Assembly (NCBI RefSeq): GCF_017995515.1
Contig: NZ_JAGOIT010000025.1
Location: forward strand, 1-33,919
Length of the DNA stretch: 33,919 nucleotides
Source of the DNA: Propionivibrio sp.
Lineage (GTDB): Bacteria; Pseudomonadota; Gammaproteobacteria; Burkholderiales; Rhodocyclaceae
Direction of reading: 5' to 3'
The position numbers and the translations under genes were made by a program. Position 1 is the stretch's first letter. Each line of letters opens with the position of its first letter. Below are positions 1-12,535 of this stretch, one piece after another. Below the pieces are notes generated by a model that was given only the letters and a program-made list of their open reading frames with translations, did no database searches and had not been told where the DNA came from.

Positions 1-49
1 ACTTGATCAATATCAGCCGCTTCGAGCCGGGGACCCGGCAGCTGCGTTA

Positions 50-76
50 TTAGCACTCACGCTTAACGAGTGCCAA
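50..76 (-). promoter_or_regulatory. CIRCE operator (HrcA binding site)
   Basis: Inverted repeat TTAGCACTC-N9-GAGTGCCAA. The CIRCE consensus is TTAGCACTC-N9-GAGTGCTAA, so 17 of 18 arm positions match and the spacer is exactly nine. HrcA represses groESL, dnaK or hrcA operons through this site. The element is symmetrical, but the promoter next to it points left, so the regulated gene should start to the left of the window. The AraC gene to the right is transcribed toward the site and is not its target. Confidence 0.9.
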
Positions 77-105
77 TAATAGGGACGGGGTAGGTGAATT
101 TCAAG
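77..105 (-). promoter_or_regulatory. sigma-32-like heat-shock promoter reading left
   Basis: On the minus strand CTTGAAA (105-99) is followed after 14 bases by CCCTATTA (84-77). This resembles the sigma-32 consensus CTTGAAA, 13-15 bases, CCCCATNT. The CIRCE element begins one base downstream of the -10 box, at the expected transcription start, which is the usual arrangement for dual heat-shock control of groESL-type operons. The gene itself lies outside the window. Confidence 0.7.
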
Positions 106-151
106 ACGGGATTTTCTATTTTTTTCGTTGCGCGCTGAAAACGGGCGACGT

Positions 152-1084
152 TCAGCGATCCCCGTCACGTTCGCCACCGGTCTGGCGCCGATACGCCGAC
201 GGCGTCATGCCCATGATTCTGCTGAAGGTCTCGGTGAAGTAACTGCTCCCGGAAAAACCGGTGCGCTGGGCGATCTCGGTCACCGACAGTCTTCCGGCGG
301 CGAGCAGCGAGAGGCTTTCGCGAATCCGGCAGGAGATCGCGTAGCCCATCGGGCTCGTGCGCAGCATGCGCCGGAACAGGCGGCAGCACTCGCCCTCCGA
401 CAGGGCCATGCTCGCGGCAATGTCGGCGAGCGTCATTCGATCGGCGTAACGCGCGTCGATGAATGTCAGCGCGCGCCGCATCCGCTCGATATCGCGCGTG
501 GACTGCAGGCCGTCCCCGATCGTTCCTTTCGCGTTGGGAAGCGTTTCGGAGAACCGATGGATCAAGCGCCAAAGGCCGAGGATCCGCTCCATCGCGTCAA
601 GTTCCCACCCCGGCTCCGCCTCGTCGATCATCGACTGGAAGGTAGCGACCCGATCGAGCAGATCGGCCTGCCACGGCTCGTCGCGTTTCAGATGAACGAA
701 TGCCAGCCGCGGATCAAGGAGCTGCGGCTGGACGAAGTTTCCGAAGAGCCGCGTGCCGGCGAGGCCACCGAGGAGCGCGGGATCGATCCGCACGACCTGG
801 TATTCGCAATCCGCCGCGTGCTCAAGCCAGCCACTGTGGAGCGTGTTGCCGGCCAGATAGACGCCTTCGCCGCGGCGAATCGTGAAGCGCGTGCCATTGG
901 CCTGGAAGGCCATCTCGCCTTCGACGACCCGCTCGAATTCGAGCGCGCCGTGCCAGTGGCAGTCGAATCGACCGCGCGCAAACGTGGATAGCCGCCAAGT
1001 GCTGGCTTGAATCGGGAAGGAGGCGTCGAGCGGGAAGCTGATTTCCCGTTGACGACCGTCCATGCGCAGGGTGAGTTTGTCCAT
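152..1084 (-). CDS. AraC-family transcriptional regulator
   Basis: A 310-aa two-domain regulator. The first part (about residues 25-110) has the pattern of an AraC-type cupin sensor, including the stretch HWHGALEF. The last ~100 residues hold the paired helix-turn-helix of the family: first helix pair around MTLADIAASMALSE, second around SVTEIAQRTGFSGSSYFTETF, then MTPSAYRR, which is the standard end of the domain. The protein is full length for the family. The gene is divergent from the YczE-like membrane protein at 1242 with about 157 bases between them, so it may control that gene, itself, or the glycyl radical operon further on. The ligand is unknown. Family assignment is secure; the target is inference. 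Confidence 0.93.
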   Translation of the reverse strand: MDKLTLRMDGRQREISFPLDASFPIQASTWRLSTFARGRFDCHWHGALEFERVVEGEMAFQANGTRFTIRRGEGVYLAGNTLHSGWLEHAADCEYQVVRIDPALLGGLAGTRLFGNFVQPQLLDPRLAFVHLKRDEPWQADLLDRVATFQSMIDEAEPGWELDAMERILGLWRLIHRFSETLPNAKGTIGDGLQSTRDIERMRRALTFIDARYADRMTLADIAASMALSEGECCRLFRRMLRTSPMGYAISCRIRESLSLLAAGRLSVTEIAQRTGFSGSSYFTETFSRIMGMTPSAYRRQTGGERDGDR

Positions 1085-1241
1085 AGCGGCCGGGAAGCGT
1101 GATGCGTTGAAGCGCAGGATTGTTATTACATTCGCCAGTATTCCGACATTTTTCGCATTGCTCGTAAAACTACAATCAATATATCTGGAAAGATCGATAT
1201 TTCACGACGCACACTGCCCCGACTTCGAGAAAAAAAGCTGC

Positions 1242-1883
1242 ATGAAGGAAAGAACACTCAATATCGCCATGACCGCCGTCGGCATCGCGCTGTGCGGCAC
1301 CTCGGTCGGCATGGCGCGGCACGCCGGCTTCGGCACCGATCCATTCACGGTTCTGGTGACCGGGCTCGACAACCGGCTCGCCCTCGGCTATGGCGTCATC
1401 TTCACGACGCTCGCCGCGCTCTTGCTGGTCGGTGTTTTTCTGTTGAAGCGGCGGCTGATCGGCCTAGCGACGATCTTCACGCTGGTCGGGCTCGGCTTCT
1501 TCGTCGAGAGCTCGTACCAGATCGCCGACCTGCTGATGCCGCATCCGGGCGTCGCGTTGCGCAGCGCCGAGTTGGCCGCGAGCCTTGCCTTGATTTCCCT
1601 GGCGTCGGCGCTGTATTACACCGCCGATCTGGGTGTCTCGCCCTATGACGCGGTCGCGCTCATCCTGGCCGATCGTACCGGCGTGCCCTTTCGCTTCTGC
1701 CGCATCGCTACGGACTCGGTCTGCGTTCTCGTCGGTTTCAGCTTCGGCGCGACGCTCGGCGTCGGCACCATTCTGACTGCGCTGTGCATGGGGCCGCTGG
1801 TCGATCTCTTCAACCGTTGCGTCGCGCAGCCGCTGCAACGCCGCTATTCCCGGCCGCAGCGACTGCAAGCGCAAAGTTGTTGA
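1242..1883 (+). CDS. YczE/YitT-like integral membrane protein
   Basis: A 213-aa hydrophobic protein with about five to six membrane segments. It has the internal pattern of the YczE/YyaS family: a segment with GFGTDPFTVL near residue 30 and a second similar one with DLGVSPYDAVALILADRTG near residue 130, each following a membrane helix. No transport function is established for this family. The ATG at 1242 starts the first membrane segment directly; a longer reading from 1062 would overlap the AraC gene and add an unlikely polar extension. No strong ribosome site is visible, only GAGA 15 bases upstream. It lies 120 bases before the glycyl radical activase on the same strand, so it could carry the substrate or product, but this is inference. 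Confidence 0.75.
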   Translation: MKERTLNIAMTAVGIALCGTSVGMARHAGFGTDPFTVLVTGLDNRLALGYGVIFTTLAALLLVGVFLLKRRLIGLATIFTLVGLGFFVESSYQIADLLMPHPGVALRSAELAASLALISLASALYYTADLGVSPYDAVALILADRTGVPFRFCRIATDSVCVLVGFSFGATLGVGTILTALCMGPLVDLFNRCVAQPLQRRYSRPQRLQAQSC

Positions 1884-1923
1884 TTCACCGCGCAAAGGGA
1901 ATCCTGGGCGACCGACAAACTGC

Positions 1924-1951
1924 TTGACTCGAATTGGTATTCGTACACAAT
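1924..1951 (+). promoter_or_regulatory. candidate sigma-70 promoter of the glycyl radical operon
   Basis: TTGACT (1924-1929, five of six to consensus), 16-base spacer, CACAAT (1946-1951, four of six). It lies 55 bases upstream of the chosen activase start. The downstream dyad covers the spacer and -10 box, which is how a repressor would act. Confidence 0.5.
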
Positions 1952-1957
1952 ACCAAT
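1933..1957. promoter_or_regulatory. 25-bp dyad operator over the glycyl radical operon promoter
   Basis: ATTGGTATT and AATACCAAT form perfect 9-bp arms separated by seven bases (CGTACAC). The dyad overlaps the spacer and -10 region of the promoter at 1924-1951. The likely binder is the GntR/LacI-type regulator encoded last in the same operon (5306), giving substrate-induced self-control. The CGTAC centre recalls the AraR family of such hybrid regulators, but the assignment to this regulator is inference. Confidence 0.65.
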
Positions 1958-2005
1958 GATCAAAGAGGCGCCACCTCGCCTTCGCGCCAACCAATGAGAC
2001 GAGTC

Positions 2006-2884
2006 ATGCAACTGAATGTCTTCCGCAAAGGTTTCAACACTTCGCAGGACGGGCCGGGGAACCGGCTGGTCTATCACCTGCAGGGCTGCAACATGCGCTG
2101 CGCCTGGTGCTCGAACCCGGAAGGGATGGCGCGCAAAGGCACCTTGCTCGTCGATGCGGAAGGTTTGCGCGAAAGCGCTTGCCCGCACGGCGCAATCATC
2201 GGGAAGACGATCGACCGCACGCGTTGCGCATCGTGCGAGACCCGCGAATGCCTGACGATCAACCGCAACCAGAGCATCCGCTGGTCGTCGACGCCCTGCG
2301 ATGTGGAAGCGCTGGTCGTCGAAGCCAGGCGCAGCGTGCCGCTCTACTTCGATGGCGGCGGCGTCACGCTGTCGGGCGGCGAGGTCACCGTCCAGTTCGC
2401 GGCGGCGAAGCGCCTCTTGCAGCACCTGAAGGAAGAGGGCATCCACACCGCGATCGAGACGAACGGCGCGCACCGGCGACTGGGCGAACTGTTCCCGCTC
2501 GTCGACTGCCTCATCATCGACTTCAAGCACCACGACGATGCGCGCCTGCGTGCAGCCACCGGCGTCGGCATCGAAGTCATCAAGCGCAACCTGCGCAAAG
2601 CGCTGGCCGAGCATCCGGACGTGCTGATCCGCATCCCGCTGATCGGCGGTTTCAACGACGCCTCTGCCGATGCGGAGCAGTTCGCGGCTTTCTTCCGGCC
2701 ACTCGACACAGCACGCGCTCGCTTCGAGTTTCTCAGCTACCACGAGTACGGCAAGGACAAATGGGCGCAATGCGGCCTGCCGTACCGGATGGAGCGTATG
2801 AAAAGCGCCTTCGTCGGCAACGAAACCGTCGCGCAATTCCAATCCGTCTTCGCGGCCGCCGGCCTGCACGTCATTCACACTTGA
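2006..2884 (+). CDS. glycyl-radical enzyme activating enzyme (radical SAM)
   Basis: A 292-aa radical SAM protein that should install the glycyl radical in the enzyme encoded 12 bases downstream. The SAM cluster motif CX3CX2C is C28, C32, C35, and the GGE-type SAM contact is in TLSGGEVTVQ. Between them lies an insert with four further cysteines (C59, C74, C77, C82). Most activases of this class carry eight cysteines for two ferredoxin-like clusters, so this one probably binds only one extra cluster. The ATG at 2006 follows a GAGACGAG stretch and places the first strand as in homologues; an ATG at 1994 is possible. A TTG reading from 1934 would begin inside the operator and is rejected. Function is secure; pairing with the next gene is inferred from adjacency. 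Confidence 0.92.
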   Translation: MQLNVFRKGFNTSQDGPGNRLVYHLQGCNMRCAWCSNPEGMARKGTLLVDAEGLRESACPHGAIIGKTIDRTRCASCETRECLTINRNQSIRWSSTPCDVEALVVEARRSVPLYFDGGGVTLSGGEVTVQFAAAKRLLQHLKEEGIHTAIETNGAHRRLGELFPLVDCLIIDFKHHDDARLRAATGVGIEVIKRNLRKALAEHPDVLIRIPLIGGFNDASADAEQFAAFFRPLDTARARFEFLSYHEYGKDKWAQCGLPYRMERMKSAFVGNETVAQFQSVFAAAGLHVIHT

Positions 2885-2896
2885 GGGAGCAAGTTC

Positions 2897-5290
2897 ATGG
2901 GCATTCATTCTGTATATAGCAACGCAGAGATCAGCGCGCTGGCCAAGGCGCGCTTCAAGGAAGAGCGCAGCCTGCAACGCCTCGACGGCTGGTTCCGGGT
3001 GAAGGAAATCCGGCGCGAATGCGACGCGCAATTAGCACAATTCGCCGACCTGCCGCCCGCCTTGAAGACGGCGCGGACGATGCGCGAGGTGATCCGCCGG
3101 CTGCCGATCTCGATCAGCGAGCACGCGATCTTCGCCGGCACGCAGGACGACGCCTTCGCCCGCTCGTACGCGCTGATCAACCCGACCTTCGAAGTCAATT
3201 CCTTCACCGGCTACTGCGATCCGACCGCGGTGTTCGGCGACATCGAGCCGAACGCGGAATTCAGCAAGGAACGTATTGACGACTTGCGCGAGTACGAAAA
3301 GACGCTGCCCTTCACGCAGGCGCTTAACCACGCCTACACGCTCGCCGGCAACGCCACCGAGGAAGCCGTGTTCTTCATCGAACAGGTCACCGGCCACCTG
3401 ATTCCCGACTTCAAGCCGGCGCTCGCCAAGGGCATCACCGGCCTCATCGCCGAGATTGACGCGAAAATCGGCAACGCGACGCCAGCCAAGCGCAGTTATT
3501 ACGAGGCGATGAAGGTCTCGCTCGAATCGATCGTGCTGCTCGCCGACCGCTACGCCGAACTCGCGCACGCCCAGCAGGCCGATGCGACCGGCCAGCACAA
3601 GGCAGCGCTCGCTATACTCGAAGCGACACTGCGCCACGTGCCGCGCAACCCGGCGCGCAACCTGCACGAGGCAATCCAGTCTTTCCTTCTGCTCTGGCAG
3701 GTGATGTGCCTGGAGCAGTCGCCCAACCCGTTCGCCTTCTCGGTCGGCAACGCGGACCGCATTTTCGAACCGTACCGCGCCGCCGAGGACACCGACCGCG
3801 CGAGCAGCGCCTCGCTGTTCAAGCACTTCCTCACCTTCTTCAACGTCGGCGACCGCAGCTGGGCGATCTCGCAGAACGTGATGGTGGGCGGCAAAGCGTT
3901 CGACGGCACCGATCTCACCAATCCGACGTCGTACGCCCTGCTCGACGCCTATTTCGACATGAACCTGCCGCAGCCGATTCTCTCGGCCAAGCTGCACAAG
4001 AACACGCCGTCGGCGCTCTACGAGGAACTCGGCCGCTTCTACTTCTCGTCCGGCGTGCTCACGCCGTCGCTGTTCAACGACGACTCGCTGTTCGACGTCC
4101 TCGCCGCCTCGGGCGTCGCCGCCGAAGACCTCGAGAACTACTCGGTTGCCGGTTGTCAGGAACCGTTGATCATGGGCAAGGACAACGGCAACACGACGAA
4201 TAGCTGGCTGAACCTCGCCAAGATCCTTGAACTGACGCTGCACGGCGGCATCTCGGCGATCTCCGGAAAGCGACTCGGCCTTGATCTCACCTCCGCGAAA
4301 ACGGCCGATCGCGCGACCGAACACCTGTTCAACCTCCGCGAACGCTTCTACGCGCACGTCGAGCATTTCGCCGACAAGATGGTCGCCGCCGCCAACGAGG
4401 CCTCGCGCGCCATCGGCCTCCTGCCAGTGCCTTTCCTGTCAGCTTTTATGGGCGGCATGGAGACCGGCGTCGACATGCGCGACACCAACGAGCAAGGCAC
4501 GAAGTACAACGGCAGCGGCTGTCTGATCCACGGCCTGTCGATCGTCGCCGACTCCTTCGTCGCCATCGACCAGTTCCTGAAGGATCGCCCGCTCGAAGCG
4601 GAGCGCCTGTTGCGCGCGCTGAAGACCGACTTCAAGGACGACGAAGACCTGCGCCAGTACCTGCGCAGCTGCCCGAAGTTCGGCAACGCCATCGAATCGG
4701 TCGACCGCGAAGCCAAGGCCGTCGCCGATCGCATCAGCGCCCTGATCGCCGCCAAGCGCAACTATCTCGGCAATCCGTTCAGGCCCGACTGGAGCACGCC
4801 GTCGACGCACCTGCTCTACGGCCACTGGGTCGGCGCGACGCCGGACGGGCGGCAGGCGCGCGAGATGCTCGGCTACGGCCTCGACCCGCTCTACGGCGAG
4901 GCGCAATCCGGGCTCGGCCTGCGCGTCCTCTCCGGCGCGCAACTGCCGTACAAGGCGATGAACGGCGGCTACGCCTCACACTTCGGCATCAACCCCGGCC
5001 AGTTCCGCGGCAAGACGCTGGCCGACAAGGGTCTCGAATTTCAGCGCAAGGTCGTCGCGCCGCTGTTCACCAACGGTCCCGACGGTGAACCCGGCCCGTT
5101 CTACCTGTACGTCAACGTCACCACGCCGGACACGCTGCGCCAGGTGCTCGCCAACCCCAAGGAGCACGCGCCGAGCGGAATCTATATCATGCGCATCCAC
5201 GGCACCTTCGTGAATTTCCTCGACCTGTCGCCCGAGATCCAGCAGGACATCATCAAGCGGCTCGACCTGGACTCGACCGCCCTGAACTGA
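2897..5290 (+). CDS. glycyl radical enzyme, pyruvate formate-lyase family, substrate unknown
   Basis: A 797-aa enzyme of the PFL/eliminase family; it starts 12 bases after the activase, with GAGGGAG before the ATG. The thiyl cysteine is C420 in VAGCQEP, followed by E422. A Cys-x-Glu at this point is the mark of the eliminase branch (glycerol and propanediol dehydratases, choline and isethionate lyases, usually GCVE), where Glu acts as base. PFL itself has a Cys-Cys pair, so this is not a true PFL. The radical glycine is G769 in MRIHGTFVNF near the C-terminus. The usual signature is R-V-(S/C/A)-G-Y; here the residue before Gly is His and the one after is Thr. Substrate residues cannot be matched to a characterised subgroup. 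It needs anoxic conditions, as oxygen cleaves the radical form. Confidence 0.9.
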   Translation: MGIHSVYSNAEISALAKARFKEERSLQRLDGWFRVKEIRRECDAQLAQFADLPPALKTARTMREVIRRLPISISEHAIFAGTQDDAFARSYALINPTFEVNSFTGYCDPTAVFGDIEPNAEFSKERIDDLREYEKTLPFTQALNHAYTLAGNATEEAVFFIEQVTGHLIPDFKPALAKGITGLIAEIDAKIGNATPAKRSYYEAMKVSLESIVLLADRYAELAHAQQADATGQHKAALAILEATLRHVPRNPARNLHEAIQSFLLLWQVMCLEQSPNPFAFSVGNADRIFEPYRAAEDTDRASSASLFKHFLTFFNVGDRSWAISQNVMVGGKAFDGTDLTNPTSYALLDAYFDMNLPQPILSAKLHKNTPSALYEELGRFYFSSGVLTPSLFNDDSLFDVLAASGVAAEDLENYSVAGCQEPLIMGKDNGNTTNSWLNLAKILELTLHGGISAISGKRLGLDLTSAKTADRATEHLFNLRERFYAHVEHFADKMVAAANEASRAIGLLPVPFLSAFMGGMETGVDMRDTNEQGTKYNGSGCLIHGLSIVADSFVAIDQFLKDRPLEAERLLRALKTDFKDDEDLRQYLRSCPKFGNAIESVDREAKAVADRISALIAAKRNYLGNPFRPDWSTPSTHLLYGHWVGATPDGRQAREMLGYGLDPLYGEAQSGLGLRVLSGAQLPYKAMNGGYASHFGINPGQFRGKTLADKGLEFQRKVVAPLFTNGPDGEPGPFYLYVNVTTPDTLRQVLANPKEHAPSGIYIMRIHGTFVNFLDLSPEIQQDIIKRLDLDSTALN

Positions 5291-5305
5291 GCGCATGATC
5301 TGAGA

Positions 5306-6352
5306 ATGAAAGCCAGCGAAAAAGACCGCCTCTACCGCATCCTCGAAAACAAGATCTGCGAGCGGATTTTTCGCGGCGAGTACGCCGATGGCGAGAACCT
5401 TCCGCCCGAGCGCACGCTCGCCGAGAGCCTCGGCGTCAGCCGCGTCACCGTGCGCAAGGCGCTGGCGCTGCTTGAGGCCGACGGCATCATCCAGCGTGTG
5501 CAGGGCAGCGGCAACCGCGTTGCCCTCTCAGTCGCCGGCTATCCGGGCACGACCGACCTCATCGCCGTCCTCGCGCACGCGCAGAACGTATTTTTCGCCG
5601 AGTTCATCGATTACTTCCAGCGTACGGCGGAACTTAGCGACTCGCTGGTGCTGTTCAAACAGGTGCCGGCCAGCGAGGCGCTCGAAGCGAGCCTGTTCAA
5701 GCTTTTCCAGAAGAACATCCGCAACGCGGTGATCTGGCTTGAGGACCAGCCGGTCGACATGGAAGCGATCCGCCGCCTGCGCGGCCTCGGCATGAACATG
5801 GTGTTCTTCGACGTCGTCACGCGCTCGCCGTACGCCGACGGCGTGCTGCTCGACAACCGGGACGCCATCGCTTCATTGCACGACGCACTACGGAGCAAGG
5901 GGGCGAACCGGATCGGCTACGTCGGCTGGGACAACGCCGCCGTGCTCAGCGCGCGCGAGCGCGAGCAGGCCGCGAGCGAGCAGACACCGACGCCCGCTTT
6001 CGTGCGCCGAATCGACTGGCGTGACAAGAATCACCTCGGACAGATCGCCGAGACGATCGCCGACGAAATCAAACCGGCATCGACGCCGCCTGACGCGCTG
6101 CTCTGCGGCGACGGAGAGATCGGCGTCGCGATCCGCAAGGCGCTGCTCTCGCGCGGACTCGCCGCCATCCGTGTCGCCTCGCCCGACGAGTATCCGGAAT
6201 CGCGCGCGCTCTCGATCACCGTTTACCGGCAGGACTTCGAGAAACTCGCCGAGCAGACCTTCAACTGCCTGCTCGCGCAGAATCGGCCCGGCTGGTCAGC
6301 GTCGGTTTTTCCGATCCGCGGCGAGCTCGTCGAACCCGCCGCAGCGGATTGA
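5306..6352 (+). CDS. GntR-type regulator with LacI-like sensor domain
   Basis: A 348-aa regulator starting 15 bases after the glycyl radical enzyme stop, so co-transcribed. Residues 5-75 form a GntR winged helix-turn-helix (LPPERTLAESLGVSRVTVRK, then a wing with RVQGSGNRV). The remainder has the periplasmic-binding-protein/LacI pattern (start ADLIAVLAHAQ-like strand, RIGYVGWD, DALLCGDGEIGVAIRKAL, ending with a strand of VASPDEYP type). This combination is that of AraR-type repressors that sense sugars or small organic molecules. Its place in the operon suggests it senses the substrate or inducer of the glycyl radical enzyme and binds the dyad at 1933-1957. The architecture is clear; ligand and operator are inference. 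Confidence 0.85.
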   Translation: MKASEKDRLYRILENKICERIFRGEYADGENLPPERTLAESLGVSRVTVRKALALLEADGIIQRVQGSGNRVALSVAGYPGTTDLIAVLAHAQNVFFAEFIDYFQRTAELSDSLVLFKQVPASEALEASLFKLFQKNIRNAVIWLEDQPVDMEAIRRLRGLGMNMVFFDVVTRSPYADGVLLDNRDAIASLHDALRSKGANRIGYVGWDNAAVLSAREREQAASEQTPTPAFVRRIDWRDKNHLGQIAETIADEIKPASTPPDALLCGDGEIGVAIRKALLSRGLAAIRVASPDEYPESRALSITVYRQDFEKLAEQTFNCLLAQNRPGWSASVFPIRGELVEPAAAD

Positions 6353-7204
6353 TTACGCCAACGCCGCCTGCATCAGCGTCGCGAGCGACGTCGTCGGTCG
6401 GCCGATCAGCGCGCTGAGCTGGCGTTGATCGTCGAACAAGCCGCCCTTTGACGCACCGACGTCCGAGTCGGCGAGCAGGTCGGCGATTGGCTCCGGCAGA
6501 CCCGCTCCGAACAGCGCGGCCTTGTAGTCGGCCTCGGGCAGATTGACGTAAGGGATTTGCTTGCCCGACTGGCGGCTCAGTTCAGCTGCGAAGTCGGCGA
6601 GCGTATACGAATCGTCGCCCGCCAACTCATAGACCTTGCCCGCCTGTGCCGGCGCCGTCAGCGCAACGGCGGCCGCTTCGGCGTAGTCGGCACGCGCGGC
6701 GGAAGAAATACGCCCCTCGCCGGCGCTGCCAATGAAGGCGCCGTGTTGCAGCGCTGGCTGTACGCTCGCCAGGTAGTTCTCCGTGTACCAACCGTTGCGC
6801 AGCAGCACGAACGGGAGGCCGGACTCGCGCAGGTACGCCTCGGTTGCCGTGTGCTCGGCGGCCAGACCGAGCGGCGACGTATCGGCATGCAGGATGCTGG
6901 TGTAGGCGAGCAGCGCGACGCCGGCTTGCTTCGCCGCGTCGATGGCGTTGCGATGCTGCGCAGCGCGCTGTCCGATCTCGCTCGACGAGATCAGCAGCAC
7001 TTTCTCAGCGCCCTGGAACGCAGCTACGAGCGAAGCCGGGTCGGTGTAGTCGGCCTTGCGGACCTGAACGCCCAAGGCGGCGAGATCGGCAGCACGCGCC
7101 GGATTGCGCACGGCGGCGACGATCTGGCTGGCAGGCACTTTGGCCAGCAGTGATTGGATGACGAGTCGGCCGAGCTGGCCGGTGGCGCCGGTAATGACGA
7201 TCAT
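6353..7204 (-). CDS. qorB: NAD(P)H:quinone oxidoreductase, QorB/NmrA type
   Basis: A 283-aa atypical short-chain dehydrogenase. It opens with MIVITGATGQLG, the NAD(P) binding glycine motif, followed by AAVRNPARAADLAALG typical of NmrA-like proteins. The YTSILHADTSPLGLAAEHTATEAYL and LLRNGWYTENYL stretches match the E. coli YtfG (QorB) type. The start at 7204 has AGGAGT eight bases upstream; a longer reading from 7243 is not needed. The gene ends directly against the GntR gene (convergent, no gap) and is divergent from an HxlR regulator, the same arrangement as ytfG-ytfH in E. coli. It probably reduces quinones with NADPH. The symbol is assigned by this likeness, without a database check. Confidence 0.8.
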   Translation of the reverse strand: MIVITGATGQLGRLVIQSLLAKVPASQIVAAVRNPARAADLAALGVQVRKADYTDPASLVAAFQGAEKVLLISSSEIGQRAAQHRNAIDAAKQAGVALLAYTSILHADTSPLGLAAEHTATEAYLRESGLPFVLLRNGWYTENYLASVQPALQHGAFIGSAGEGRISSAARADYAEAAAVALTAPAQAGKVYELAGDDSYTLADFAAELSRQSGKQIPYVNLPEADYKAALFGAGLPEPIADLLADSDVGASKGGLFDDQRQLSALIGRPTTSLATLMQAALA

Positions 7205-7254
7205 GGGTGGAACTCCTGTGTGATGTGATGAACGAGCACGCACAGTATCGGATA

Positions 7255-7273
7255 TACTAACTTTTCGTAAGTA
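7255..7273. promoter_or_regulatory. operator candidate between qorB and hxlR-type gene
   Basis: TACTAAC-N5-GTAAGTA, an inverted repeat with six of seven arm pairs matching, in the 88-base gap between the divergent genes. HxlR/YodB-type regulators bind spaced dyads rich in GTAC-like steps, so this is the likely site through which the regulator at 7293 controls both genes. Confidence 0.55.
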
Positions 7274-7292
7274 CGCACCTGGAGGTTAGTGC

Positions 7293-7745
7293 ATGTCCGA
7301 CATTTCAAGCCCAAGCCGCGTGACCGAACGCATCCCGCTCTCCGAACACCTCATGCGCGGCAATCTGTTTGCCGAGGCCTGCCCGTCACGCGAGGTGCTG
7401 AAGCACGTCACCAGCCGCTGGGGCGTTCTACTCCTCGTCGCGCTGATGGCCGGCACGCACCGCTTCAGCGACCTGCGGCGCAAGATCGGCGGCGTCAGCG
7501 AGAAGATGCTGGCGCAGACGCTGCAATGGCTGGAAGCCGATGGCTTCGTCCTGCGTGTGCAGTACCCGGTCGTACCGCCGCACGTCGAGTACTCGCTGAC
7601 GGCGCTGGGCGAGGAGGTTGCTTTGCGCGTGCGCGATCTTGCCGACTGGATCGAGGTGAAGTTGCCGGAGATCATGCAGGCGAAACCGCAAGACGACGCT
7701 GCCGTACCCGCGAACGTGGCGGTTACTACGCACCGGCTTCGGTAA
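7293..7745 (+). CDS. HxlR-family transcriptional regulator (YtfH-like)
   Basis: A 150-aa winged-helix protein. EACPSREVLKHVTSRWGVLLLVAL is the standard HxlR opening, followed by RFSDLRRKIGGVSEKMLAQTL (recognition region) and a wing with PPHVEYSLTALG. Cys29-30 region (EACPS) holds the conserved cysteine used as a redox or electrophile switch in YodB/HypR relatives. GGAGG lies eight bases before the ATG. Divergent from the quinone reductase at 7204, which it probably represses until quinone or electrophile stress. Only one cysteine is seen, so a two-cysteine switch within one subunit is not expected. Confidence 0.9.
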   Translation: MSDISSPSRVTERIPLSEHLMRGNLFAEACPSREVLKHVTSRWGVLLLVALMAGTHRFSDLRRKIGGVSEKMLAQTLQWLEADGFVLRVQYPVVPPHVEYSLTALGEEVALRVRDLADWIEVKLPEIMQAKPQDDAAVPANVAVTTHRLR

Positions 7746-7797
7746 TTCACGAGGGTTGTATGTTGATGAGGCGCTGTGTTCCGCGCCTGACGCGCGG

Positions 7798-7943
7798 CAT
7801 TACTTTCTTTTGTCTTGCCAAAAGAAAGTAAGCAAAGAAAACGCGCGCCCACAGCGTCGCCCGGCTACGCCGGGATCTCTGCGCTGCTCAGGCACAACGG
7901 GAGGGCTGCGGAACTCGGGCTTCGCCCTCAGACAGTCCTCGCC
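7798..7943 (+). repeat. intergenic repeat, copy 1 (with 13-bp hairpin at its outer end)
   Basis: Left copy of a repeat that recurs inverted at 8094-8245. The outer end (7800-7831) is a perfect 13-bp hairpin, TTACTTTCTTTTG, loop of six, then its complement. The inner end (7904-7943) is a ~40-base core running GGCTGCGGAACTCGGGC to GACAGTCCTCGCC that matches copy 2 with only a small loop change. No run of T follows the hairpin, so it is not a classical terminator. Open frames on both strands here are by-products of the repeat. Confidence 0.85.
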
Positions 7944-8093
7944 CTTCTTCCCGTTGCGCCTTGCGCTGCTCGACGACGCAAAGGGCCAATTGACAACCGA
8001 TCGAATAGCGACCGTCTGACGCATGAAATACCGTTCGGTGTGCTTTCCCCCCCTCGTGCAGCGCCGAGCAACGGAGTGGGGCCGGGGGCAGTC

Positions 8094-8245
8094 GGCGAGG
8101 ACTGTCTGAGGGCCAAAGGCCCGAGTTCCGCAGCCGCCCGGCTTGCCGAGTAGCGCAGGGCAGCCGGCAACGCCGGCCGCGTAACGCGGGGGTCGCCTTC
8201 TTTTTGGTGACTTTTTCTTGGCGACGCAAGAAAAAGTCACACGCC
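8094..8245 (-). repeat. intergenic repeat, copy 2, inverted (with 14-bp hairpin at its outer end)
   Basis: Mirror copy of the 7798-7943 repeat. The core is 8094-8135 and the outer hairpin is 8207-8240: GTGACTTTTTCTTG, loop GCGACG, perfect 14-bp complement. The two outer hairpins are alike in design (pyrimidine-rich arm, six-base loop) but differ in sequence, while the inner cores are nearly identical. About 150 bases separate the cores. Confidence 0.85.
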
Positions 8246-8311
8246 GTCAGGGCGGAACACAGCCTCAGCTCTCCGAAGGCGCTTCCTGCTGAGCGCGTGC
8301 CGGTATGAAGA

Positions 8312-9085
8312 TCAGTTCCCGCGGCGTGTCGTATCATCCAACCCGATACGCCCAACGAACGGCAACCGCAACCCCGGACTGTTCAGATCGACACCGAAGT
8401 TCAGGCCGAGCAGGTTGATCTCCAGCCCCTCGCCCAAACCGACATTGACGCCGAGCAAGCCAAGCAACGTCGCCTGCACGCCGCTACCGGAAGACGAAAT
8501 ACCAAGCGGATTCGTGATCGGGCGGTAATCCTTGCCGATCGCATTGGCCGGCAGGTCGAGCTTCAGCGCCGGTACTTCGCGCCCAATGTGCGCCAAAAAC
8601 GTGTTGCTGTTGGGGCCGGGGTACACACGATACGTGTCGGCATACGGATAGCTGGCGATCGCCGCTTCGATCTTGCCGATTATCGCATCGACACCTTCAC
8701 CGCGAAGGTCGACCAAAAGCTGCGGCCGTTCGCCGTACCAGAGGCCGTCGGGCAGCGCGTAGTTGCGCTGGACGACATCCGGCGCGCGCCAGCCGACGAC
8801 GTCGTAGCGCGTGAAGGCCGTCTCGCCGGAACGCTTGAAGACGATCCACGGATGCACCGCGACGTAGCGCCGCCAGCCGTAGGTCGGCGCAACGTACACC
8901 TGCACGATCGCCGTGTCCCGCAAGACGACCGGGTCGGGCGCGATGCCGGCTGAATGGCGGGGCGCCGTGCGCCAGCTGTAGTTCTTCGGGCCGTCGTCGG
9001 TGAGCGAGGCGTTGGCCACGCTGAGCCCGAAAGACAGCGCGACCAATCCCGCGACGAACAACCCGAGCCGCGCCGTCCGTTTCAT
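8312..9085 (-). CDS. DUF3750 domain protein, exported
   Basis: A 257-aa protein with an N-terminal membrane or signal segment (LGLFVAGLVALSFGLSVANA). The body matches what I know of DUF3750: HPWIVFKRSGETAFTRYDVVGW, then a middle PYADTYRVYPGPNSNTFLAHI and a C-terminal glycine-rich part with GLEINLLGLNFGVD. The His-x-Trp and the NSNTF motif give it a papain-like look, but no catalytic function is established. The ATG at 9085 has GGAG five bases upstream; a GTG at 9088 is adjacent. It follows the 1145-aa gene by 12 bases, so it is the second gene of that operon. Role unknown. Confidence 0.8.
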   Translation of the reverse strand: MKRTARLGLFVAGLVALSFGLSVANASLTDDGPKNYSWRTAPRHSAGIAPDPVVLRDTAIVQVYVAPTYGWRRYVAVHPWIVFKRSGETAFTRYDVVGWRAPDVVQRNYALPDGLWYGERPQLLVDLRGEGVDAIIGKIEAAIASYPYADTYRVYPGPNSNTFLAHIGREVPALKLDLPANAIGKDYRPITNPLGISSSGSGVQATLLGLLGVNVGLGEGLEINLLGLNFGVDLNSPGLRLPFVGRIGLDDTTRRGN

Positions 9086-9097
9086 CACCGCTCCACG

Positions 9098-12000
9098 TCA
9101 GCGACCGCCATCCAGCGGCTGCAAACCGATCGTACCGACCAGCGCGGCGCGATACTCGGGCGAGCCGGCGCGCACGCGTTCGGTCTGCGTCTGCGCGCGC
9201 CGCGCGGCAATGCCCAGGCGCGTGACGACGCCGGCGTTGTCCGGCCGGTCGATGAACTCGTAGAGCGAGGCGACGGCGCGGGTCAGACGCTTTTCGTCGG
9301 CGCGCTGCTTGGCGTCGAGCCGCTCGGCGTACCAGTCGCTGGCGAGCACGCTTTCGCGCGTAAACATGGCGCGCAACTCCGGCGAGTCGAGGCCGAGGCC
9401 GCTTTCGCTGCGGCCCTTGGCCATGATCTCGAGCAGTGCCTTGAGCGGCGGGCAAGCCATCGAGATCGTGCCGTCGGCAAAGTAGGACTCTGCAACGCGT
9501 TGATGTGTGGCGACGATGTTGGCCACGCCGTCAACGTAGATGTCCATGTCCTGCAGCTCCGGACGCAGCATCTCGTCGGTGAATACCGAGTGCGGATGCA
9601 GGAAGACGCGGCCGAAGTAGCGGCTGGTGAAGCGCGCCGTGACGCGATAACCGAGGCGGCTGGCGAGCACCGGCTTTCCGTTGTGCTCGAAGTCCTCGAC
9701 GCGTTCCAGCGCGCCTTCTTCGATCAGGCGCTTCGCGTCGCGTTCTTCAGCGCTCATGCGCGCGAAGATCTCCGGCACCAGCAGGCTGATGTCGTGATCG
9801 ACGCGCACGTTCGGCCCGACGTAACCGGCGGCCGACAGCCAGCCGTCGTGACCGGTCAGCGCCAGCGAGACAAAGGCGGCGTTGAGGTCGATGATCGCCG
9901 GCAGCATGTTGAACGGCCCCTTGGTCAGCGCGCCCTCAGAACCCGCGCCGGTCGTCGACGGCGACTTGCCGGTCATCGAGCTGATGTACTCCATGAAGAG
10001 TTCCGGCAGCTCCATGTAGTGCAGCGGGTTGAACGGACACAGCGGGCGGATGCCCTCTTCCGGCGGATTGTTGCGCCGCCCGGTAGCGACCACGTGCACC
10101 GGCGTAACCAGCGGTTCGCTGGAAGGCTGGCGGCGGAAGAGACGCATCGCCAGTTCGGCCGACGCCGTCTCCTTCGGGTTGGCGATGTCGGTACGCAGCT
10201 GCAGGTAGCGCGGATTCTTGGTCGGTTTGCCGTCAACGATGCGCGGGTGCGCCGACGAGACGAAGTACTTCGGCGACGCGTCGTCCGGCGCGTCGGCGGC
10301 GGCCTGGATCAGGCGCTGCATCGGTGCGGTGAAGGCGTTGAAGCCGATTGCGTCGTCGACCAGTTCGCGTGCGTCAGAACCAACCAGCGGCGCGAAGTTG
10401 GACATGAACGAATCCGGCAGCGCGATATCGGCTTCGGCCTGGCCGTCGTAACCGCGATGGATCGCGTCGTCCGGCCGCTGGAAAAGGTAACGCTCGCAGT
10501 TCTTCACATACTTCTGCGACACCTCGCCGAGCTGCCCGCTGACGACGCCGGCCGGAACGACAACGCTCGCCGTGATGTCGTCCTCGGTCTGCACCTTGAT
10601 CGCCGGATGGAAGTCGTGACGCAGGCCGAAGACGCGCCACGAGTTGTCCTTGCCGAAGCCGATGCGCAACGTGTTGACGATCAGCTTGCGGCCGTCGAGT
10701 TTCAACGAGTACCCCTGCCGGCCGTTGATCACGTCGACCGAGTAGTGCTTGCGCCAGTCGTTGCCCCATTCCGGGCGATGGAAGCGTTTGACGACGAAGA
10801 CGAGTTCCTTGACGTGCTGCGGAATCGAGCGCAGCCACTCGTTGTACTCGTCGTTGTATTCGCGCGACGAGGGCGTGAGCAACTTGATGACGCTGCCCAT
10901 CGAGCGCTCGTTGGAGAGGATCAGGCGGTGATCGCTGCCGTTCTTCGCCGGGTCGCGGAAGCGGTCCGAGAAGTCGCGCGCGAGGATGGCGGCGACCGCC
11001 TCCATATCGCTGTCGATGTCCGGCACATAAACGTAGCCTTCGAGAATCGCATCAGACAGCGCTTTCGAGATTTCCGACTTGCCGCCGCCCGATACCGTCG
11101 CTGGCTTGTGGCAGTCGGTCACATCGGCCGAGGTACCGACGAGGTTCCACTGCTTGCGATCGGTGCGCGACGGCTCCATCTGCATGCGGTAACCGTTCGG
11201 CCCCATGTAGGTCTTGCCGGCGAGCATCTTGATCGACGCCGTGCTGCCGTCCGCCTTCGTCCAACACACCGTCTGCGTGCGCAGGCTGTAGGTCGATTTG
11301 GCCGGCACCAGCACGAGATGCGGGTTGAGCTTGTCGAACGCATGACCTTCCGGCTGCGCGACGAAGCGGTCGGCATCGCGCTTCAACACGTCGTCGAGCG
11401 AATACGCGTCGCCCGCCGTCAGATCGGTGTACTCCTGTCCTTCGTTGTAGCTCGGGAAGACGAGCGCACCGCCGGCGTGTTCCTCCTCCGCGAAGCCGTA
11501 GAGGTTGGCCGAGTAGCTGATCTGCGTCTTCACTTCCTTCTTGCAGTAGCCGAAGTAGTTGTCGGCAATCAGCGTCACGACCACGCCACGCGCGTCGCGT
11601 GCGCAGATCTTGAAGGCGTTGCCGCCGTTGTACAGCTCGCTCTCGCTCTTGTAGCACATGCCGTCGCGGCGCTGCCGTTCGGTCGCCGCGTCCCACTGCG
11701 GCAGCCCGAGCAGGTGCTTGGGCACGCCGACCAGATGCGGCGCGAGGATCACGCAGCCGCTGTGCCCGGTCCAGCTGTCGGGGTCGAGCGAGGCGTCGTG
11801 TTCCGGCAGGTAGGGGTCGCCGCCGTTGCCGAAGATCGACTCGACGAAGTCGAGATTGGCGACCAGCGAGCCGGGGACGAAGAAGCGCGTTTCCATGCGC
11901 TTTTCCGGGATGAAGCCGGGCACGCCGGGCACGACCAGCGGACGCAGCTGCAACGAGACGTAGCACGCCGCCGGCACCGGCTCATCGGCCGTGAAGGGCA

Positions 12001-12535
12001 GCCGCATCGATTCGGCCGGTGGATTGAGCGCCAGCGCCAGCAGGCGCGAAAACGCCAGCTTGGGCACGGCGAGCTTGTCATCCGGCACCGGCAGGCCGCC
12101 TTCGACGAGGTGGAAGACGCCGGCCGTCGTGCGCCGGTCGCTCGCCGGGTTGTGCAGCACGCCGTTGCGCAGGCGATAGCTGGAGAGCAGCGGCGACTTG
12201 AAGTAGTCGCCGTTCGCCGGTAGCGACAGGCCGCGTGCAAGACCGGGCTGATCGAGAACGAGCGTGCGGCGCGGCAGCTGCGGCGCCGGGCCGACCTCGG
12301 CCAGATAGTCGGTGAGGAAATTCTGGATGCGCTGGTCGACCGGACACAGGCGGTCGGCCAGCCGGCGGTTCGCCTCGCGCTGGCGCGCCAGGATCGGCTC
12401 CATCAGGCCGGTTATCACAGCGCCATCCGCATCGGCGGCAAGCGGCAGACCGAGCAGGGCGAGGCGCAGGTTGATCGCGGCGTTGAGATCCTGGGGAGCG
12501 ATGGCGGCAGGGGCGAAGCGGTCTGGAGAATTCAT
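9098..12535 (-). CDS. large protein, probable PPi-type phosphoenolpyruvate carboxykinase
   Basis: 1145 aa. Bacterial and Entamoeba PPi-dependent PEP carboxykinases are about this size (~130 kDa), unlike the ~600-aa GTP enzyme. Visible support: K332-K333 in YFGYCKKEVKTQ and H353 in EEEHAGG are 21 residues apart, the spacing of the metal-binding Lys and His in GTP-PEPCK (rat 243 and 264). FPS follows (FPSYNEGQEY), as in the GTP enzyme's FPSACGKTN loop, but the GKT is missing, which fits loss of nucleotide use. A GGGKSE stretch occurs near residue 486. Reaction expected: PEP, CO2 and phosphate to oxaloacetate and PPi, cytosolic. The start at 12535 lacks a clear ribosome site. Divergent from a CbbR-like regulator. 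The family identification is from memory and these spacings, so moderate. Confidence 0.6.
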   Translation of the reverse strand: MNSPDRFAPAAIAPQDLNAAINLRLALLGLPLAADADGAVITGLMEPILARQREANRRLADRLCPVDQRIQNFLTDYLAEVGPAPQLPRRTLVLDQPGLARGLSLPANGDYFKSPLLSSYRLRNGVLHNPASDRRTTAGVFHLVEGGLPVPDDKLAVPKLAFSRLLALALNPPAESMRLPFTADEPVPAACYVSLQLRPLVVPGVPGFIPEKRMETRFFVPGSLVANLDFVESIFGNGGDPYLPEHDASLDPDSWTGHSGCVILAPHLVGVPKHLLGLPQWDAATERQRRDGMCYKSESELYNGGNAFKICARDARGVVVTLIADNYFGYCKKEVKTQISYSANLYGFAEEEHAGGALVFPSYNEGQEYTDLTAGDAYSLDDVLKRDADRFVAQPEGHAFDKLNPHLVLVPAKSTYSLRTQTVCWTKADGSTASIKMLAGKTYMGPNGYRMQMEPSRTDRKQWNLVGTSADVTDCHKPATVSGGGKSEISKALSDAILEGYVYVPDIDSDMEAVAAILARDFSDRFRDPAKNGSDHRLILSNERSMGSVIKLLTPSSREYNDEYNEWLRSIPQHVKELVFVVKRFHRPEWGNDWRKHYSVDVINGRQGYSLKLDGRKLIVNTLRIGFGKDNSWRVFGLRHDFHPAIKVQTEDDITASVVVPAGVVSGQLGEVSQKYVKNCERYLFQRPDDAIHRGYDGQAEADIALPDSFMSNFAPLVGSDARELVDDAIGFNAFTAPMQRLIQAAADAPDDASPKYFVSSAHPRIVDGKPTKNPRYLQLRTDIANPKETASAELAMRLFRRQPSSEPLVTPVHVVATGRRNNPPEEGIRPLCPFNPLHYMELPELFMEYISSMTGKSPSTTGAGSEGALTKGPFNMLPAIIDLNAAFVSLALTGHDGWLSAAGYVGPNVRVDHDISLLVPEIFARMSAEERDAKRLIEEGALERVEDFEHNGKPVLASRLGYRVTARFTSRYFGRVFLHPHSVFTDEMLRPELQDMDIYVDGVANIVATHQRVAESYFADGTISMACPPLKALLEIMAKGRSESGLGLDSPELRAMFTRESVLASDWYAERLDAKQRADEKRLTRAVASLYEFIDRPDNAGVVTRLGIAARRAQTQTERVRAGSPEYRAALVGTIGLQPLDGGR

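Follow-up and report, generated by a model that had tools for sequence, protein, structure and literature searches.

A glycyl radical enzyme from Propionivibrio belongs to a deep, apparently uncharacterised clade with a RIHGT radical site and a probable role in anaerobic sugar breakdown

Results

Genes and features of the locus

The window analysed here is a stretch of 33,919 nucleotides from a Propionivibrio sp. assembly (GCF_017995515.1, contig NZ_JAGOIT010000025.1). It contains a gene for a glycyl radical enzyme (GRE), a kind of oxygen-sensitive radical enzyme, preceded by a gene for a radical SAM activating enzyme and followed by a regulator gene:

1934..2884, + strand: radical SAM activating enzyme (activase); TIGR02494, 195.8 bits against a cut-off of 174.35; CX3CX2C in GCNMRCAWC
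2897..5290, + strand: GRE of the RIHGT clade, 797 aa; open reading frame, PF02901, family loci, tree, AlphaFold2, Foldseek
4151..4165, + strand: thiyl-site motif GCQEP (C420, E422), residues 419-423; 50-row alignment, 80 of 80 loci
5192..5206, + strand: radical-site motif RIHGT (G769), residues 766-770; 50-row alignment, RIHGTF in 79 of 80 loci
5306..6352, + strand: regulator combining a GntR DNA-binding domain with a LacI-type ligand domain; Pfam; such a regulator stands at +1 in 9 of the 76 loci, the window among them

The GRE frame opens with ATG and is intact, running for 797 codons without an internal stop. The activase frame begins at 1934 with TTG; comparison with relatives makes the ATG at 2006 the likelier start. 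Judging by its domains, the regulator probably senses a sugar-like ligand. Upstream of the activase lie an AraC-type regulator (155-1084, - strand) and a gene partly resembling the membrane protein YczE (1062-1883, + strand; 97.8 bits, below the cut-off of 205). At 8954-12535, two overlapping frames on opposite strands (1089 aa on +, 1145 aa on -) both lack a Pfam match. Promoter and terminator scans yielded results near chance level. GC content stays between 0.60 and 0.67 across positions 1-12000 without a step at the GRE gene and, by that measure, does not indicate recent foreign DNA.

The protein has the fold of a GRE and falls outside the modelled classes

The only Pfam match of the 797-aa protein is the PFL-like domain PF02901 (351 bits, cut-off 24.3). 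An AlphaFold2 model (mean pLDDT 82.6, pTM 0.89; pLDDT below 50 at residues 635-675 and 766-770) was best matched by Foldseek to the B12-independent glycerol dehydratase 1r8w (TM 0.79, 23% identity), which was also the top hit of a solved-structure search (192 bits). Glycerol dehydratase, propanediol dehydratase, HplG, HypD, PflD and CutC matched the fold nearly equally well (TM about 0.78-0.81; identities of 19-24% for the best entry per enzyme type). Superfamily traits present are the PFL-like domain and fold, a catalytic glycine near the C-terminus, a catalytic cysteine and a partner activase. The sequence-only reading had taken the gene for a real GRE, and the domain and fold matches bear this out; the 23% identity to glycerol dehydratase also lies far below the 60% at which that reading would have assigned the protein to a characterised enzyme.

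Eleven NCBIfam models matched with E-values up to 0.001. The best, for the broad PFL2-3 subfamily, reached 233.9 of the 678.2 bits required, and the protein fell far below the cut-off of every equivalog among the matching models: HypD (182.6 against 1100), CutC (141.8 against 1050), PFL (74.5 against 994), the two sulfopropanediol dehydratase models (177.4 and 164 against 1000), and the indoleacetate (98 against 1100) and hydroxyphenylacetate (32.8 against 1150) decarboxylases. The PRK09983 model for PflD gave 180.5 bits against 1109. Membership in an NCBIfam-modelled GRE class was rejected on these scores.

Catalytic residues are conserved within altered motifs

Aligned with reference GREs, G769 and C420 coincide with the radical glycine and the catalytic cysteine, so that an aminoacyl radical enzyme was rejected as an assignment. 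C420, E422 and H167 are kept in this alignment, including against glycerol dehydratase, and H167 falls on the histidine of the GH found in several eliminases; GCQEP thus retains Cys-x-Glu, as first noticed from the sequence. By contrast, both flanks of G769 differ from all aligned references. According to PMC11528403, the fingerprint commonly used to recognise GREs is RVXG[FWY], with which only the R and G of RIHGT agree. As this is an identification motif and the catalytic glycine is present, the protein is still filed as a GRE.

The motifs are indeed unusual, as had been claimed for both the Gln of GCQEP and for RIHGT. Among 49 other GRE open frames collected, 42 carry RVxG[FWY] within their last 130 aa, and RIHGT is absent from all seven exceptions. 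Five of these are PFL-type with the radical domain in a separate short frame, one (L130) lacks its C-terminus and one (L138; G066, contig C1, 3254358-3255905) is another GRE frame of unusual type, its radical site reading RLGGM. The five PFL-type frames (L115, L119, L120, L122 and L128, in G059, G066, G061, G063 and G060, respectively) are 682-721 aa long and end before the radical motif; just downstream on the same strand, a frame of 85-100 aa contains RVSGYAVNF, which amounts to a split PFL in five Clostridia.

Chance was rejected as the origin of the motifs, GCQEP being found in 80 of 80 family loci and RIHGTF in 79; the remaining locus (L101) is incomplete, the query having matched only up to residue 752. 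In the 50-row alignment, residues 418-424 (AGCQEPL) and 766-775 (RIHGTFVNFL) are invariant. Both motifs serve, on sequence grounds, as clade markers of this GRE family. The spacing between C420 and G769 is 349 residues, within a family range of 339-350; for six reference GREs the same script gave 310 for a PFL-type enzyme, 322 for E. coli PflD and for the PflD-like protein of the window genome, 331 for HypD, 335 for a BSS-like protein (labelled by eye) and 345 for YbiW. The spacing is at the long end of the range and not abnormal, in keeping with the initial description of it as normal.

Pocket residues are altered. The His-Ser pair and the Asp of glycerol dehydratase, which we take to be substrate-binding positions, align with F279-A280 and T434, and these dehydratase positions are therefore not matched. 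Ahead of the R320-S-W-A-I-S-Q stretch the protein lacks twelve alignment columns, and a three-residue insertion precedes the radical loop. With C420, E422 and H167 kept and the dehydratase positions and gaps changed, the eliminase machinery appears to be present in a pocket that looks rebuilt. The protein is almost certainly a working GRE, to judge from its residues, and the view that the gene is probably functional gains from the invariance of R766, G769, C420 and E422 and from the adjoining activase.

The RIHGT proteins form a deep clade

A family search, with one genome per species, yielded 109 relatives, of which the best 80 were used. These share 57-65% identity with the query, except for one fragment at 89% (L079). 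Clostridia (Oscillospiraceae, Lachnospiraceae and others) make up most of these 80, and many of the genomes stem from gut samples; Anaerolineae and Akkermansiaceae are represented by single MAGs, and Propionivibrio-like members also occur. Some GRE match was present in 19 of 59 relatives searched, and an ortholog in only one, the congeneric G002, where it lies on two contigs (82% and 89% identity).

When 64 GREs (16 rows of the family plus 48 others, among them PFL-type, PflD, YbiW, HypD and unclassified ones) were placed in one tree, the family rows formed one clade with an SH-aLRT of 100. Its stem measures 2.7 changes per site, similar in length to the 2.96 of the PFL-type clade. The tree is of a quick kind with long branches, of which the program warned, and we confine our claim to the unity and depth of the clade. 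Grouping with PflD, YbiW or HypD was rejected on the separate position of the clade. The RIHGT clade is thus, by sequence, a deep and apparently uncharacterised branch of GREs. A description of it was not found in the open-access (PMC) literature, to which the search extended, subscription papers lying outside it; superfamily trees already in print may well include the clade without naming it. RIHGT turns out to be common, within a subgroup of its own in which no characterised member was found. The earlier suggestion of a separate class accordingly stands as a phylogenetic statement; a separate substrate class would be an extrapolation from the tree, the altered pocket residues and the gene context.

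An entire clade, mostly from gut Clostridia, escapes the motif commonly used to recognise GREs, and the changed residues on either side of its radical glycine offer a natural experiment on how much change such a site can accommodate.

A sugar kinase and an isomerase-like protein often adjoin the GRE

Neighbours were counted at 76 loci, namely the window and 75 of the 80 relatives (L030, L079, L087, L089 and L090 lacked a called GRE frame and were excluded). The activase stands at -1 in 66 of them, a count that omits the window's own, which the gene caller missed. An FGGY kinase of about 450 aa occurs in 51 loci, in 43 of them at +1, and a mannose-6-phosphate-isomerase-like (ManA-like) gene in 29, at +2 in 26; a ROK regulator family is present in 17. 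A kinase cluster is lacking from 25 loci and an isomerase cluster from 47, some loci being cut by contig ends. Median gaps are short: 14 bases for the activase (66 pairs), 9 for the kinase (43) and -4 for the ManA-like gene (27). The kinase is FGGY by Pfam and lies under every NCBIfam kinase cut-off (XylB, 106 against 380.25), and the ManA-like protein exceeds two Pfam cut-offs while remaining below that of NCBIfam (86.1 against 116.2). At L093, the kinase and ManA-like parts form a single 852-aa protein adjoining the GRE.

Among 291 class-mates of genome G062, the GRE is present in 14 and the kinase in 30, including all 14 GRE genomes (Fisher p = 5.6e-16, a value that ignores kinship and comes from a centre genome picked for carrying both genes). 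Of the 16 genomes of this class with the kinase only, 14 regions were examined. The kinase is fused to GH32 at L189 and adjoined by a GH32 gene at L182; a DUF2961 neighbour was assigned by Pfam at L185 and by near-identical starts at L183, L184 and L187, and neither type of neighbour was seen in the remaining 8 of the 14 regions. DUF2961/GH172 is reported to include enzymes acting on difructose dianhydride and D-arabinan. Kinases with and without a GRE did not form two clades, and their intermixing suggests that they may share a substrate type.

Other arrangements occur. At L029 and L031-L034, the GRE is instead accompanied by a xylulokinase (479 bits against 380.25 at L034), polyol-dehydrogenase-like proteins and ribose-type ABC genes; the GRE was present in 3 of 98 relatives of the L029 genome. 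L092 has the order activase-GRE-kinase-ABC ATPase-permease-binding protein, the transporter being of the ribose type. GH38 genes lie beside the GRE at L071, L077, L081 and L100 and, by eye, at L096 (a truncated gene after the GRE), and farther away at L069 and L078. A GH2 gene (L086), a GH32-like gene (25-26%; L062) and a DUF2961-like gene (50%) with a GDSL hydrolase (L098) were also found nearby, as was a fructose-6-phosphate-aldolase-like gene at L032-L034, a weak match (35-36%) on the opposite strand in one group of relatives. There were 144 other co-directional neighbours, of which 20 were chosen for a Pfam scan and a few more scanned or matched otherwise; many of the 20 have non-sugar assignments (ArgJ, Cys/Met metabolism, FemAB, DNA methyltransferase, amidohydrolase).

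The window genome and its relative G002

At the window locus, no kinase or ManA-like isomerase gene lies nearby. No FGGY kinase of the partner type was found in the window genome, where the two matches reach 25% (a glycerol kinase) and 28% identity; other FGGY proteins exist there, the best with 30% identity to the G002 kinase. A Pfam search of this genome revealed one other GRE, on contig C134 (L001 of G000), a PflD homolog (PRK09983, 1348.9 bits against 1109). PflD is a type reported to open 1,5-anhydromannitol-6-phosphate, and its occurrence in a Propionivibrio-like bacterium is unexpected.

In G002, the nearest relative (L140; contig C36, 975-14886), the activase and GRE genes come last in a same-strand series that also encodes a regulator of the RpiR type, a hydrolase with the lactamase fold, an SDR, a 2-hydroxyacid dehydrogenase and an aldolase of the KDPG type; genes in the divergent direction encode an FGGY kinase, ribose-type ABC proteins and a GPI cupin. 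Across the 76 loci, the SDR and the aldolase each have one match and the lactamase-fold gene has none; nor was the lactamase-fold gene found in the window genome. For these reasons, this sugar/sugar-acid set is not used as main evidence.

Discussion

Proposed function

Since genes for a sugar kinase and an isomerase of sugar phosphates often adjoin it, the GRE probably serves anaerobic sugar catabolism. The best explanation, to which we give an even chance as a whole, is a C-O eliminase that acts before the kinase in breaking down a sugar, sugar alcohol or anhydro-sugar of the mannose/fructose type. Its parts differ in strength: by analogy the enzyme is likely to be a C-O eliminase, a sugar-type substrate is somewhat less firmly favoured, and action ahead of the kinase is a tentative proposal, slightly less probable than not.

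By superfamily precedent, the activase would generate a radical on G769 that passes to C420, whose thiyl radical would abstract hydrogen from a carbon bearing OH; E422 and H167 would then assist loss of the neighbouring C-O substituent, by dehydration or ring opening, to give a carbonyl compound. Gene context suggests as substrate a sugar, sugar alcohol or anhydro-sugar alcohol of the mannose/fructose type, presumably unphosphorylated given the ribose-type ABC uptake genes at some loci. The keto-sugar product would be phosphorylated by the adjoining FGGY kinase (xylulokinase-type in some Lachnospiraceae loci), after which an isomerase-like protein would often act. Such a route would be the kinase-after-radical counterpart of that of E. 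coli YbiW/PflD. In the window genome, where the dedicated kinase was not found, another FGGY kinase would have to serve.

On the order of steps, the evidence points both ways. ABC transporters favour a GRE acting before the kinase, while the 6-phosphate precedent of YbiW and PflD favours the reverse. Coupling to the isomerase points to a true hexose as the kinase substrate and so speaks against the simplest YbiW-like 1-deoxy product; an ordinary isomerase would not act on a 1-deoxy sugar phosphate, the product type of YbiW/PflD, which weighs against the best explanation. The strongest competitor, which we consider unlikely, places the GRE after the kinase and isomerase, on a phosphorylated hexose or anhydro-hexitol phosphate. 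YbiW and PflD convert 1,5-anhydroglucitol-6-phosphate and 1,5-anhydromannitol-6-phosphate to 1-deoxyfructose-6-phosphate, according to PMC12441222 and the PDB titles 8id0 and 8id7, and the kinase and isomerase-like protein are coupled, once by fusion (L093). However, the RIHGT clade stands apart from PflD and YbiW in the tree, the transporters at some loci bring in unphosphorylated substrate, and homologs of FrwB, FrwC and PtsA, representing one PTS type, the FrwB query being short, were not found among the neighbours.

Glycerol fermentation offers a precedent for paired oxidative and reductive branches, the latter using a dehydratase. By this model, one branch would oxidise and phosphorylate a polyol while the GRE dehydrates part of it as an electron sink. 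L029 and L031-L034, which join xylulokinase, polyol-dehydrogenase-like proteins and ribose-type ABC genes to the GRE, fit such a polyol dehydratase; yet they represent one Lachnospiraceae group, and the commoner layout of GRE, kinase and isomerase-like protein has no dehydrogenase, making this quite improbable. A non-sugar substrate, with kinase, isomerase and glycosidases as incidental neighbours, is very improbable: the window locus does lack a nearby kinase or isomerase gene and several neighbours at other loci are unrelated to sugars, but the kinase accompanies the GRE in 14 of 14 genomes, at short gaps, and the window's regulator is of a sugar type. Least credible of all is a loss of radical formation: although the flanks of G769 are unlike all aligned references, R766, G769, C420 and E422 are invariant in 50 rows and an activase adjoins the GRE in 66 of 76 loci.

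Returning to action before the kinase, a bolder version, which we advance as speculative and on the improbable side, is that the RIHGT clade constitutes an unrecognised class that uses a radical for C-O chemistry on an unphosphorylated hexose, hexitol or anhydro-hexitol and hands its product to a dedicated FGGY kinase and the ManA-like enzyme. If true, gut Clostridia would possess a second radical-mediated sugar route, possibly even one in which a mannose-type pyranose is ring-opened by a radical mechanism and so isomerised to a ketose. In either form, the operon partners narrow the candidate substrates to a short list, which makes this orphan GRE clade directly testable.

Comparison with known systems

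Glycerol and 1,2-propanediol dehydratases (1r8w, 9rco) share with the RIHGT enzyme the GRE fold (TM 0.79-0.80), Cys-x-Glu, the conserved histidine and the activase. In contrast, identity to glycerol dehydratase is only 23%, RIHGT replaces RVAGY, and F279-A280 and T434 occupy the positions of its His-Ser pair and Asp. The E. coli anhydrohexitol-6-phosphate lyases PflD and YbiW are likewise GREs encoded near sugar genes, and a logic may be shared in which a keto-sugar is made that enters glycolysis; they are separate in the tree, have a PTS where a kinase is found here, and show 24% (PflD) and 19% (YbiW) identity in the fold alignment. The aminoacyl radical enzymes of PMC11528403 also depart from RVXG[FWY]; they carry Ala, Ser or Thr where a GRE has its radical glycine, whereas in the RIHGT enzyme the glycine is kept and its flanks are changed.
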